DNA from: Bryobacteraceae bacterium
GTDB lineage: Bacteria; Acidobacteriota; Terriglobia; Bryobacterales; Bryobacteraceae
Direction: 5' to 3'
NCBI GenBank assembly: GCA_026002875.1
Contig: BPGE01000001.1
Location: 3,286,001-3,350,000 of the forward strand
Length of the DNA: 64,000 nucleotides
In this document: one piece after another, positions 34,558 to 40,066 of the stretch
How positions within the stretch are numbered: position 1 is the stretch's first letter
Layout of the letters: every line of letters begins with the position of its first letter
Notes under the pieces: generated by a model
What the model was told of the DNA's origin: nothing
Seen by the model: only the letters and a program-made list of their open reading frames with translations
Databases searched by the model: none
Position numbers and translations under genes: made by a program

Positions 34558-34624
34558 CCCAGCCGACGTTACCCCTGCCGCTGGTTGAGGGTTGAACGAA
34601 CCGAAACACAGCGGAGTGGTGACG

Positions 34625-34654
34625 AGTGTAACAAGTTTCTTATTCGGAGGTCAA
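34625..34654 (-). promoter_or_regulatory. Sigma70-type promoter for the large TonB receptor gene
   Basis: On the minus strand TTGACC (-35) and TACACT (-10) are separated by 18 bp in a locally AT-rich stretch of otherwise GC-rich DNA. They lie about 140 bp before the GTG start, implying a long leader. Confidence 0.5.
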
Positions 34655-34738
34655 GGCCGATTAATACTTCCAGAAGGCACTGGGATTTCACGGCCGCGCA
34701 CGGGAGCGCGGGGGGAAGCGCGGGCGCGGCGGGCGGCA

Positions 34739-35437
34739 TCAATAGTTGCGGACCGCTGAGATCTCTGCCAGGATGCGCTCGACGGCGGCCGAGGGATCCT
34801 CCGCCCGGGTGACCTCGCGTCCGATGACGAGGTAGTCGGCGCCGGCAGCGAGGGCTTCCGATGGCGTGGCGACGCGCTTCTGATCGTGGGCGGCCGAGCC
34901 GGCGCTGCGCACGCCCGGGGTGACGAGGAGCCGTTCCGGCCCGGCGAGCTCGCGCAGCGGGCGGGCCTCCCGGGGCGAGCAGACGAATCCGTGAGCGCCG
35001 GCTTCGATGCCGCGGGCAGTCAGCCAGAGGACGTGTTCCGCGGGAGTGCGTCCGGTGACGCCGGTGTCTTCGAGGTCGCGCTGATCGAAACTGGTGAGCA
35101 CCGTCACAGCGAGGATCTTCGTTTCCGAGCCCTTCACGGCCTCGGCGGCGGCGCGGATGACCTGCGGGACGCAATGCACGGTGAGCAGGCTGACGCCGAG
35201 CCCGGCAGCGCGCGCGGCCGCCCGTCTGACGGTCTCGCCGATGTCATACATTTTGAGGTCCAGGAAGACACGCTTGCCGGCGGCGATGAGTTCGCGGACG
35301 ACGGCGGGGCCTTCGGCGGTGAAGAGCTCGAGTCCGACTTTGTAGAAGCCGACGAGGCCGCCGCACTGTTCGACGAGGCGCATGGCTTCGGCGCGCGTAT
35401 CGACGTCGAGAGCGATGATGAGCGGGTTGGGGCTCAT
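34739..35437 (-). CDS. pyrF: Orotidine 5'-phosphate decarboxylase
   Basis: 232 residues. The N-terminal LIIALDVDTRAEAMRLVEQ strand, the catalytic FLDLKMYDIGETVRRA (Asp-x-Lys-x-x-Asp), LLTVHCVPQVIRAA and the phosphate loop VTPGVRSAG identify OMP decarboxylase, the last step of UMP synthesis. The ATG overlaps the selD stop by 4 nt (ATGA), so the two genes are translationally coupled. Confidence 0.94.
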   Translation of the reverse strand: MSPNPLIIALDVDTRAEAMRLVEQCGGLVGFYKVGLELFTAEGPAVVRELIAAGKRVFLDLKMYDIGETVRRAAARAAGLGVSLLTVHCVPQVIRAAAEAVKGSETKILAVTVLTSFDQRDLEDTGVTGRTPAEHVLWLTARGIEAGAHGFVCSPREARPLRELAGPERLLVTPGVRSAGSAAHDQKRVATPSEALAAGADYLVIGREVTRAEDPSAAVERILAEISAVRNY

Positions 35438-36414
35438 AAGATGACGATGGGCTTTTCGGCCCGCTCGATCACCCGGCCGATGATGCGGCCCTGGGCCCGG
35501 GCGGGATCAACGGAGAGGAGCAGTCCGCCGGAGGTCTGAGGATCGTAGAGCAGAGCTTCGATTTCAGGAGGCAGTTCGCGGCGGAATTCGACGGCGCAGG
35601 AGGCGAATTCACGGTTATTTTTGAGTCCGCCAGGGATGGCGCCCTGGGCGGCGTATTCGAGTGCGCCGGGGAGGAACTCGAGCTGCGCGGCGTCGATTTC
35701 GAGCGTGACGCCGGAGGCCAGCGCCATCTCGCGGGCGTGGCCGATGAGGCCAAATCCGGTGATGTCGGTGCAGCCGCGAGCTTCGCCCTCGAACCGGTTG
35801 AGGCGGCACATGGATTGAACAGCGGCCTCGACATGCGCGGGATCGGCGATGCCCCGCTTGAGCGCCGTGCCGATGACGCCCGTGCCAAGAGGCTTGGTGA
35901 GCACGAGCGCATCGCCAGGACGCGCGCCGGCATTGGTCCAGATCTTTTCGGGATGGACGAGGCCGGTAACGGCGTAGCCGAATTTCATCTCGTCGTCGTT
36001 CACCGAGTGACCGCCGACAACCACGCAGCCCGCCTCGATCATCGTCTCGGCGCCGCCCCGGAGGATCTCTTCGAGGTCCTGCAAATCGCCTTTGGCCGGG
36101 TAGCAGAGAATCGACAATGCGGTCAGCGGGCGCCCGCCCATGGCATAGACGTCGGAGAGGGAATTCGCGGCCGCGATGCGGCCGAAGATGAAAGGATCGT
36201 CGACAATCGGCGTGAAGAAATCCACGGTCTGCACGAGGGCGCACTCCGGGCTTAGCCGGTAGACGCCTGCGTCATCGCAGGTATCGAAGCCGACGAGGAC
36301 GTTTTCATCGCGGAGGCGCGGGATGCGCGGCAGAACCGTGTCCAAAACCTTTGGACTCAGCTTGGACGCTCAACCCGCAGCCTTGACATGAGCGGTGAGC
36401 TTCTTGTCTGACAC
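35434..36414 (-). CDS. selD: Selenide, water dikinase (selenophosphate synthetase) with selenocysteine at the active site
   Basis: 326 residues when the TGA at 36370-36372 is read as selenocysteine. The N-terminus from a GTG at 36414 (GGAAGGAG upstream) reads KKLTAHVKAAG-U-ASKLSPKVL. U15 and K18 match the catalytic Cys17 and Lys20 of E. coli SelD. The rest follows in frame: ENVLVGFDTCDDAGVYRL, QTVDFFTPIVDDPFIFG, AAANSLSDVYAMGG, VVGGHSVNDDEMKFGYAVTG and YDPQTSGGLL. A conventional gene call would begin at an internal TTG (36345) and lose the catalytic residue. SelD makes selenophosphate from ATP and selenide for selenocysteine and selenouridine synthesis. selA, selB and selC are not in this window. 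Confidence 0.93.
36336..36360 (-). promoter_or_regulatory. Bacterial SECIS-like hairpin in selD
   Basis: On the selD mRNA a hairpin begins 13 nt after the UGA: a perfect 7-bp stem (GUCCAAA with UUUGGAC, 36340-36356), loop GGU starting with G, and a lower stem CUG/CGG beyond one A-A mismatch (36336-36360). Distance to the apical loop (about 20 nt) and the G at the loop start fit known bacterial SECIS elements recognised by SelB. Confidence 0.8.
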
Positions 36415-36452
36415 CGCTTACATCGCTCCTTCCTCTGTAGTATGCTGCCCGC

Positions 36453-38018
36453 ATGAACCGCCGCACGTTTGTTTCCGCAACCGCTGCAGCCCTGCTGGCG
36501 CCTCGTTCCAGCCGCGCGGCCGAAGGCTCGGCCACGGTGCTTCTGAAAGAACAGATTGGCACAATCAGCCCGCTCGTGCACGGCCATTTCGTCGAGCACC
36601 TGGGCGGCGTCGTGTACGACGGCATCTGGGTGGGGGAAAAATCGAAGATTCCCAACATTGCGGGCATCCGCAAGGCGCTGATCGATGATCTGAAGCGGAT
36701 CCACGCGCCGCTGTTCCGCTGGCCGGGAGGCTGTTTTGCGGACAGCTACGACTGGCGCGACGGCGTCGGTCCGCGGGAGAAGCGTCCGAAGAGGCTGAAT
36801 TTCTGGGCCGGCTCAGGGATGCTGCAGAAGCTGGACAGCCATCCGGCGAAGTACGAGCCGAACGAGTTCGGGACGAACGAATTCATGCGTTTCGTGCAGG
36901 AAGTGGGGGCGAAGCCTTACCTGGCGGCGAATCTGCGCGGCATGACAGCGCGGGAATTCAACGACTGGGTGGATTACTGCAACGCGCCGCTGGGCTCGAC
37001 GACGTGGAGCCAGGTGCGGGGGACGCCGCCGTTCAACGTCGAGTTCTGGGGCATCGGCAACGAGAGCTGGGGCTGCGGCGGGGACTTCCGTCCGGAAGAG
37101 TACTCGGTGGAGTTCCGGCGGTTCACGTCGTGGGTGCCCGGTTTCGGGGTGCCGCTGAAGTTCATTCCGGCAGGACCGAACGGAGGCGACCTGAACTGGA
37201 CGCGCGGCTTTTTCGAGTCGCTGGTGCGGAAGAGCCCCGGGCTGCTGCGGAGAGTGTGGGGCTGGGCGCTGCACTACTATTGCGGCACGACGGGCGGACC
37301 GGTGGAGTTCACGACAGAGGAGTATTACGAGCTGCTGGCGCGCGCGGTGCGCATGGAGCAGCTGATCCGCGACCACTGGGCGATCATGGGCGAATACGAC
37401 CGCGAACACCGGGTGAAGTTCGCGATCGACGAATGGGGCGCGTGGCACAAGGCGGGCAGCGAGGTGGCGCCGCATCACCTGTTCGGGCAGATCGGAACGA
37501 TGCGCGACGCGGTGATCGCCGGACTGACGCTGGACATCTTCCACCGGCACGCGGACAAGGTGGCGATGACGTGCGTGGCGCAGCTGGTCAACTGCATCCA
37601 CAGCCTGTTCATTGCGCACGAGGACAAGATGCTGCGGACGCCGAACTACCACGTGTTCGACCTGTACAAGGCGCATCAGAACGGGATGGCGGTGCGGACG
37701 GTGTTCGGCGCGCCGATGTCGGGCAAGGCGCCGCGGCTGGACGGTTCGGCTTCGGTCCACGAAAAAGACAACCGCCTGGTGGTGACATGCACGCACGCCG
37801 ATGCCGCCGAGCCGCTGGCGGTGGAACTGCGCCTGGAGGGCGGAGCGGCGAAGTCGGCGCGGGGACAGGTGCTGGCGGGCGCGCCGCGCGACCACAACAC
37901 GTTCGAGCAGCCCGAGCGGGTGAAGCCGCGCGAACTGGCGGTGGCGGTGCGGCAGGGGCGGCTCGTCTTCGAATTGCCTCCGTGTTCGGCGGCGGCGCTT
38001 GAAGTGACGCTCGGCTGA
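36453..38018 (+). CDS. Alpha-L-arabinofuranosidase (GH51)
   Basis: 521 residues with a twin-arginine-like export signal (MNRRTFVSATAAALLAP). The GH51 signatures are clear: HGHFVEHLGGVVYDGIWVG, LFRWPGGCFADSYDW, the acid/base Glu in EFWGIGNESWGCGG and the probable nucleophile Glu in FAIDEWGAWH. A C-terminal beta domain follows (VEFTTEEYYELL through LPPCSAAALEVTLG). The enzyme removes arabinofuranosyl side groups from plant arabinoxylan or arabinan, probably in the periplasm. Its start lies 38 bp from the divergent selD start. Confidence 0.92.
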   Translation: MNRRTFVSATAAALLAPRSSRAAEGSATVLLKEQIGTISPLVHGHFVEHLGGVVYDGIWVGEKSKIPNIAGIRKALIDDLKRIHAPLFRWPGGCFADSYDWRDGVGPREKRPKRLNFWAGSGMLQKLDSHPAKYEPNEFGTNEFMRFVQEVGAKPYLAANLRGMTAREFNDWVDYCNAPLGSTTWSQVRGTPPFNVEFWGIGNESWGCGGDFRPEEYSVEFRRFTSWVPGFGVPLKFIPAGPNGGDLNWTRGFFESLVRKSPGLLRRVWGWALHYYCGTTGGPVEFTTEEYYELLARAVRMEQLIRDHWAIMGEYDREHRVKFAIDEWGAWHKAGSEVAPHHLFGQIGTMRDAVIAGLTLDIFHRHADKVAMTCVAQLVNCIHSLFIAHEDKMLRTPNYHVFDLYKAHQNGMAVRTVFGAPMSGKAPRLDGSASVHEKDNRLVVTCTHADAAEPLAVELRLEGGAAKSARGQVLAGAPRDHNTFEQPERVKPRELAVAVRQGRLVFELPPCSAAALEVTLG

Positions 38019-39017: not shown

Positions 39018-39224
39018 TCAGACGGGAAAACGGCGGGCCGCAGCAGGCTGGTTCGGCGTATTTCGCAACGGTGCTGCAACGCCGCATCCGCCGATTCCGC
39101 TCCTGAGGCTGTTTTTCGGGAAATCGTGTGTTTGAGGCATGCGCGTGGGGCCGCCTCCCCCGTATTTGCGTTTCAGACAGGGGCCGCAAGGAGACCGCTG
39201 GCGCACGCTCTCCATGCGAACACA
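39018..39224. other. Gene-free stretch before the hairpin repeat array
   Basis: About 200 bp of GC-rich DNA between the lipoprotein stop and the first repeat. I see no ORF with a credible start, no promoter and no clear terminator here. Confidence 0.5.
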
Positions 39225-40066
39225 GTTGGGATGCAGCCCTCGCGCAAGCGCGAGGGGAAATCCGAAGGAGAGGGCGCGGTGGGGCACGGTTGGGATGCAG
39301 CCCTCGCGCAAGCGCGAGGGGAAGCCCGGGAGGGGGCGCGGGCGGCACGGTTGGGATGCAGCCCTCGCGCAAGCGCGAGGGCAAGCCCGGGAGAGGGCGC
39401 GGGCGGCACGGTTGGGATGCAGCCCTCGCGCAAGCGCGAGGGGAAATCCGGAGGAAAGGGCGCGGGCGGCACGGTTGGGATGCAGCCCTCGCGCAAGCGC
39501 GAGGGGAAATCCGGAGGAGAGGGCGCGGGCGGCACGGTTGGGATGCAGCCCTCGCACAAGCGCGAGGGGAAGCCCGGGAGGGGGCGCGGGCGGCACGGTT
39601 GGGATGCAGCCCTCGCGCAAGCGCGAGGGGAAGCCCGGGAGGGGGCGCGGGCGGCACGGTTGGGATGCAGCCCTCGCGCAAGCGCGAGGGGAAGCCCGGG
39701 AGGGGGCGCGGGCGGCACGGTTGGGATGCAGCCCTCGCGCAAGCGCGAGGGGAAGCCCGGGAGGGGGCGCGGGCGCCACGGTTGGGATGCAGCCCTCGCG
39801 CAAGCGCGAGGGGAAGCCCGGGAGAGGGCGCGGGCGCCACGGTTGGGATGCAGCCCTCGCGCAAGCGCGAGGGGAAGCCCGGGAGAGGGCGCGGGCGGCA
39901 CGGTTGGGATGCAGCCCTCGCGCAAGCGCGAGGGGAAGCCCGGGAGGGGGCGCGGGCGGCACGGTTGGGATGCAGCCCTCGCGCAAGCGCGAGGGGAAAT
40001 CCGGAGGAGAGGGCGCGGGCGGCACGGTTGGGATGCAGCCCTCGCGCAGACGCGAGGGGAAATCCG
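39225..40066. repeat. Tandem array of 14 hairpin-bearing repeats (61/63-bp period)
   Basis: Fourteen copies start with GTTGGGATGCAG at 39225, 39289, 39350, 39411, 39474, 39537, 39598, 39659, 39720, 39781, 39842, 39903, 39964 and 40027. Each contains the palindrome CCCTCGCGCAAGCGCGAGGG, able to form a 9-bp stem. Two linker types occur: one with GAAGCCCGGGAG (61-bp period) and one with GAAATCCGGAGGA (63-bp period). Copies differ by a few bases; copy 6 (CGCACAAG) and copy 14 (CGCAGACG) carry palindrome mutations. All six frames are open through most of the array because the unit lacks stop codons, so long ORFs here are not evidence of coding. It is not CRISPR-like, as there are no unique spacers. 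Confidence 0.95.

Follow-up and report, generated by a model that had tools for sequence, protein, structure and literature searches.

A selenophosphate synthetase gene with an in-frame UGA, most probably decoded as selenocysteine, in a Bryobacteraceae bacterium

We describe a selD gene from a Bryobacteraceae bacterium that almost certainly encodes a selenophosphate synthetase with selenocysteine (Sec) at its catalytic residue, the in-frame UGA presumably being decoded via a hairpin located downstream. The window we analysed is 64,000 nucleotides long and corresponds to bases 3286001-3350000 of the genome, which consists of a single contig of 4,863,736 bases; its relevant features are collected in Table 1. 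According to the sequence and the six-frame lists, the selD frame of the minus strand runs from a GTG at 36414 through VSDKKLTAHVKAAG-TGA-ASKLSPKVL to a stop TGA at 35436..35434. The read-through product reaches 361 bits with TIGR00476 against a cut-off of 125, covering profile positions 1-310 of 311, and SelD is single in the genome, as the other four of the five TIGR00476 matches stay below that cut-off. When the product is aligned with the solved structures 3u0o and 2yye, the UGA falls on Cys17 and the following lysine on Lys20, i.e., the UxxK arrangement is kept. We take Cys17 and Lys20 of E. coli SelD (3u0o) to be the catalytic residues. The UxxK motif is also given for selenoprotein SelD in PMC13188914. 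The initial annotation of this DNA had given exact coordinates for the gene and had recognised both the catalytic position and the lysine. The Shine-Dalgarno sequence that it reported before the GTG was found as well; at 11 nt after GGAG, the spacing is rather long. The GTG start is shared by all five genus members compared. Just 5' of it, at 36418-36423 of the window, there is an in-frame NTG-TAA start-stop pair, present in 5/5 genus members (ATG, TTG, ATG, GTG, GTG), which may be due to chance (about one in four by our own estimate).

Table 1. Features of the selD-pyrF region (window coordinates)
Feature	Position	Strand	Details
selD, selenide water dikinase (selenophosphate synthetase)	35434..36414	-	326 residues when the UGA is translated as Sec; TIGR00476 and structure alignment
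GTG start of selD	36412..36414	-	AGGAAGGAG upstream at 36434..36426
in-frame UGA of selD, predicted Sec	36370..36372	-	codon 15; opposite Cys17 of E. coli SelD (3u0o) in the alignment
bSECIS-like hairpin GUCCAAA-GGU-UUUGGAC	36340..36356	-	7-bp perfect stem, 3-nt loop
pyrF, orotidine-5'-phosphate decarboxylase	34739..35437	-	NF001273, 257 bits, cut-off 193

The UGA is not peculiar to this genome. Among 81 SelD genes (that of the window and 80 named loci, the best 80 of 185 matches), the codon at the catalytic position is TGA in 69, TGC in 11 and TGT in one, and the same N-terminus is kept around the TGA in the selD genes of the relatives. The best named match among these 80 loci came from an uncultured Bryobacteraceae bacterium (91% identity in SelD). 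SelD matches also turned up in 172 plasmid records, every one below 60% identity, and these were left aside. A whole-genome set of 61, composed of 60 relatives and the window genome and sharing some genomes with the locus set, contained a SelD protein match at E 0.001 in 59 genomes, weak matches to related proteins included; at the 30 SelD loci whose codons were read, including that of the window, we counted 25 TGA, four TGC and one TGT. A SelD tree built without the N-terminus has five Sec/Cys changes among the 81 genes. This tree is unrooted, with 35 of its 78 inner branches poorly supported, and gain and loss of Sec are therefore not separated on it. The single locus with TGT (L115) retains an intact hairpin and appears to have lost Sec recently. 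Two minor observations belong to these comparisons. Locus L050 (contig DYJN01000039), titled Arcobacter sp., groups with Bryobacteraceae in both SelD and pyrF and is probably a misnamed MAG. Family f3, from the same order, includes 16 genomes (G038, G040-G052, G055 and G056) with SelD-like matches within stop-free frames of 749-832 codons, which are probably the published oxidoreductase-SelD fusions.

The hairpin that follows the UGA had been described in the initial annotation as a perfect 7-bp stem, 13 nt past the UGA, with a loop beginning with G, and this is what we found: it begins at 14 nt, and its loop lies 20 nt from the UGA. The published rule for bacterial SECIS elements places the apical loop 16-37 nt from the UGA, with a G as one of its first two bases (PMC13188914), so that the distance of 20 nt and the loop GGU agree with it. 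As in the consensus of that source, the selD hairpin is a stem-loop just past the UGA with a small loop and an early G; its particulars are the 7-bp stem, the 3-nt loop and a sequence common to the relatives compared. In all 69 UGA selD genes, the first or second base of the loop is a G. Of the 54 distinct TGA rows, 27 lack the seventh, innermost pair and have a five-base loop. The first six pairs are intact in 69/69 TGA genes vs. 3/12 Cys genes (Fisher 8e-10, kinship ignored), or in 11/11 vs. 3/12 when only distinct hairpins are counted (p 0.0003). A kinship-corrected pairs test of UGA loss against hairpin loss yielded five independent pairs, 2-4 of them concordant (mean 3.4) and none opposite, with a median p of 0.25; the contrast between TGA and Cys genes is thus not significant once kinship is corrected for.

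Some covariation is seen in the stem. Changes on both sides occur at 2/7 pairs, in 26 cells, a count that none of 500 shuffles equalled, and the covariation score is 0.190 against 0.116 in the shuffled alignments, again with 0/500 shuffles as high. Altogether, three of five covariation measures lie above every shuffle, and two (the number of pairs changed on both sides and of further pair types) were equalled by shuffles. Four of the seven pairs do not vary at all among UGA selD genes and therefore say nothing about covariation. As for folding, the initial annotation was right about the stem, and the energy turned out to be only modestly better than that of shuffles: z = -2.07 for 24 nt (9/200 shuffles as good), -1.77 for 36 nt (10/200) and only -0.24 for 65 nt (78/200). 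On its own, the folding energy is weak evidence.

One might object that the hairpin is a mere by-product of protein constraint on the peptide SPKVLD, with no SECIS involved. The stem does lie within coding sequence, and the invariance of its four pairs would suit such an explanation. The six pairs that persist in three Cys forms would suit it too, as would the fact that the Cys forms, taken together, pair more often than shuffles do (70.2% of cells paired; 2/500 shuffles as high), although this last result is expected under recent Sec loss and protein constraint alike. However, when the synonymous encodings of SPKVLD are weighted by the codon use of the window, only 0.036% of them preserve all of the first six pairs (the figure for SPAALD is 0.5%). 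Moreover, TGA lineages keep the stem over SPKVLD, SPKLLD and SPAALD, with changed pairs, so that even the different peptide SPAALD retains it. In the 69 TGA genes, variation at third codon positions is low inside the hairpin (0.161) and high past it (0.571), and nine of the 12 Cys forms lack the six intact pairs. Keeping all this in mind, we consider protein constraint as the sole cause of the hairpin very unlikely.

The next alternative is that the TGA is an ordinary stop, the real selD beginning at TTG 36345 and the frame upstream being a remnant or a pseudogene, or resulting from a sequencing error. It draws on translation table 11, under which the frame opens at this TTG and gives 303 aa. 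Such a start, however, sits inside the hairpin and costs the protein its catalytic residue and lysine. The ten codons 5' of the TGA evolve as protein does: across the 69 genes, their mean pairwise differences are 0.115, 0.130 and 0.535 at codon positions 1, 2 and 3, a mostly third-position variation by which we judge them to be under purifying selection. Third positions vary before and after the hairpin and little inside it, which is how a translated N-terminus with an RNA element behind it would look. Besides, this position carries TGA in 69 of the 81 genes and a Cys codon in the remaining 12, and a sequencing error would not recur in independent assemblies. We regard the ordinary stop as extremely improbable and continue with the Sec reading. 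When the window is scanned for coding potential, the selD TGA comes eighth among 406 in downstream score, so the scan by itself does not single it out. As to the truncation that automatic annotation had been expected to cause, it does arise from a plain table 11 reading, but RefSeq and GenBank do annotate a substantial number of selenoproteins (PMC13188914).

The Sec reading agrees with the gene content of the genome. Both selA (500 bits) and selB (354 bits) score over their curated cut-offs, and tRNA-Sec (selC) scores 75.5 bits vs. a gathering score of 47, with ARAGORN also calling a tRNA-SeC with anticodon tca. A second match of the tRNA-Sec model, at 49.6 bits barely over the gathering score, is a tRNA-Ser according to ARAGORN. 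The initial annotation had implied Sec decoding of UGA in this organism, which these genes support. It had also named two findings that would speak against its reading, namely missing selA, selB and selC genes or relatives with a different N-terminus. Neither came to light, because all three genes are present and the TGA is conserved together with its N-terminus. Among the 61 genomes, selA passes the cut-off in 55. Four of the five genomes with Cys-SelD (G006, G012, G018 and G024) have selA over the cut-off, G034 being the one without, so the loss of Sec in SelD need not mean the loss of selA. An exception of another kind is G021, an assembly of 1030 contigs rated 96% complete and 7% contaminated, which has a UGA selD and no selA over the cut-off.

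We looked for further selenoproteins in four families (SelD, Fdh-alpha, AhpC-TSA and Rdx) out of the more than 110 in print (PMC13188914), so the selenoproteome given here is incomplete. A PF00578 search of five genus members revealed a peroxiredoxin with one in-frame TGA in each of them, in line with the initial annotation, which had pointed to homology spanning a TGA as a way to find other UGA genes. In the window's genome, this second predicted selenoprotein lies at G000:C1:1792619 (L150:820), and the idea that SelD is the sole selenoprotein is thereby ruled out. The motif FTGGU is found in 5/5 genus members. The family assignment is based on Pfam PF00578 (117 bits vs. a cut-off of 26), the protein being below every NCBIfam cut-off; by eye, its start resembles a signal peptide. 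In all five, UACCA-GGC-UGGUA stands 3' of the UGA with 23 nt from UGA to loop. It forms a hairpin in the 22-nt fold and also in the best 47-nt fold for four of the five; the fifth is the window's own genome, in which a different structure comes out best at this length. A further UGA peroxiredoxin, with an SPGU motif, occurs in genus members G001 and G002 (L155 and L156), and the PF00578 search lists no match of this type for the window's genome (G000), G003 or G004.

We did not find the usual formate dehydrogenase selenoprotein: none of the 15 Fdh-alpha HMM matches in the genome contains a stop codon. The best of them (541 bits, below the cut-off of 666) has NPRLCMASAAGGY in frame; two NapA nitrate reductase models give it a higher score, which is again below their cut-offs. 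No match was obtained for MnmH (selenouridine) in the genome or for SelW-like Rdx in the five genomes. A covariance model of the selD hairpin gave ten matches, only selD itself being strong. In the next one (E 0.136), the TGA is not in frame and a longer open frame lies at the site, and one more of the remaining eight was inspected (L148). With both UGA genes at hand, the notion that the selD UGA is read as a residue other than Sec, through general stop suppression or a UGA-reassigned code, can practically be discounted: nothing but the open frame favours it, UGA also terminates genes in this genome (selD itself, for example), the replacement in relatives is Cys in 12/12 cases, selA, selB and tRNA-Sec are present, and the selD and peroxiredoxin UGAs are both at known redox positions.

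The Sec reading implies the following scenario, in which the binding of the hairpin by SelB, the insertion of Sec and its role in catalysis are taken over from known biology. SelA would charge tRNA-Sec (anticodon UCA) with Sec, using selenophosphate as the source, and SelB, bound to the hairpin starting 14 nt past the UGA, would bring the Sec-tRNA to codon 15. Without this delivery, the ribosome would end after 14 residues. The finished SelD would then make the selenophosphate needed for its own synthesis and for that of at least one other predicted selenoprotein, the peroxiredoxin.

Sec-SelD, its hairpin and the use of Sec in Acidobacteria are already in print, and the gene described here is a further example. 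Sec forms made up 19% of the SelD genes detected in a set of 223 genomes (PMC4561486). Conversion of Sec to Cys in SelD and SECIS-like structures after Cys codons are reported in PMC1794560, which for Acidobacteria gives three selenoprotein families, four selenoproteins and no selenouridine trait; PMC12013277 mentions three known selenoprotein genes in the acidobacterium Occallatibacter riparius. Our literature search on a Solibacter selenoprotein SelD found nothing. Given these reports of Sec-SelD, of Sec/Cys conversion and of acidobacterial selenoproteins, we consider the present case sound but of a known type. It is like the Sec-containing bacterial SelD of TIGR00476 in its Sec site (UxxK), family and machinery, and nothing essential sets it apart; even its position directly 5' of pyrF is shared with 49 of the 80 relatives. 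Sec decoding is likewise common to this genome and to the published Acidobacteria (PMC1794560, PMC12013277), and MnmH was likewise not detected here; Fdh-alpha matches with a stop are lacking in this genome. What is added is a well-documented lineage whose selenium-activating enzyme relies on the very compound that it produces, and the roughly five Sec/Cys switches among the 81 SelD genes are possible natural controls for the requirements of the SECIS hairpin.

Finally, we would like to comment on pyrF. Its start codon and the selD stop codon overlap in an ATGA (35437..35434), and it is the single pyrF match in each of the five genus members (G000-G004), adjoining selD in all of them. The overlap claimed by the initial annotation is thus real, but the arrangement is not unusual in this group, contrary to what had been stated: pyrF lies at most 60 nt from the selD end in those 49 relatives (42 with TGA, seven with Cys) and does not in 29, and in two the contigs end too soon. 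An NTGA overlap with a next frame of more than 150 codons occurs in 46/80, one of them (L076) with a frame other than pyrF. The Shine-Dalgarno duplex energy of the window's pyrF is +0.4 kcal/mol (no match), compared to -6.3 for selD and a median of -2.6 for the 46 overlaps; 5/22 other gene starts of the window, mechanically called, also score above zero. A simple sigma-70 scan of 34600-36600 showed no site inside selD but none before it either, which makes it uninformative. Judging from the overlap and the Shine-Dalgarno energies, translational coupling of pyrF to selD is plausible. It is tempting to go further and suppose that selenium gates pyrimidine synthesis: given the ATGA overlap and the lack of a detectable Shine-Dalgarno sequence of its own, translation of the sole pyrF found in the genome may need ribosomes that have passed the selD UGA, though we think this rather unlikely. 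If it were true, selenium shortage would, through the stop at codon 15, lead to less PyrF as well as less SelD. Our literature search on a selD-pyrF operon gave one paper, on archaeal genetic tools. Since the selD-pyrF neighbourhood is widespread, it raises the question of whether UGA decoding early in an operon relays selenium status to an unrelated essential pathway.

Elsewhere in the window, a tandem array at 39221-40061 comprises 13.6 copies of a G+C-rich unit of 61 bp, and a unit sharing CACGGTTGGGATGCAGCC with it adjoins selB in L138:11189-11364.
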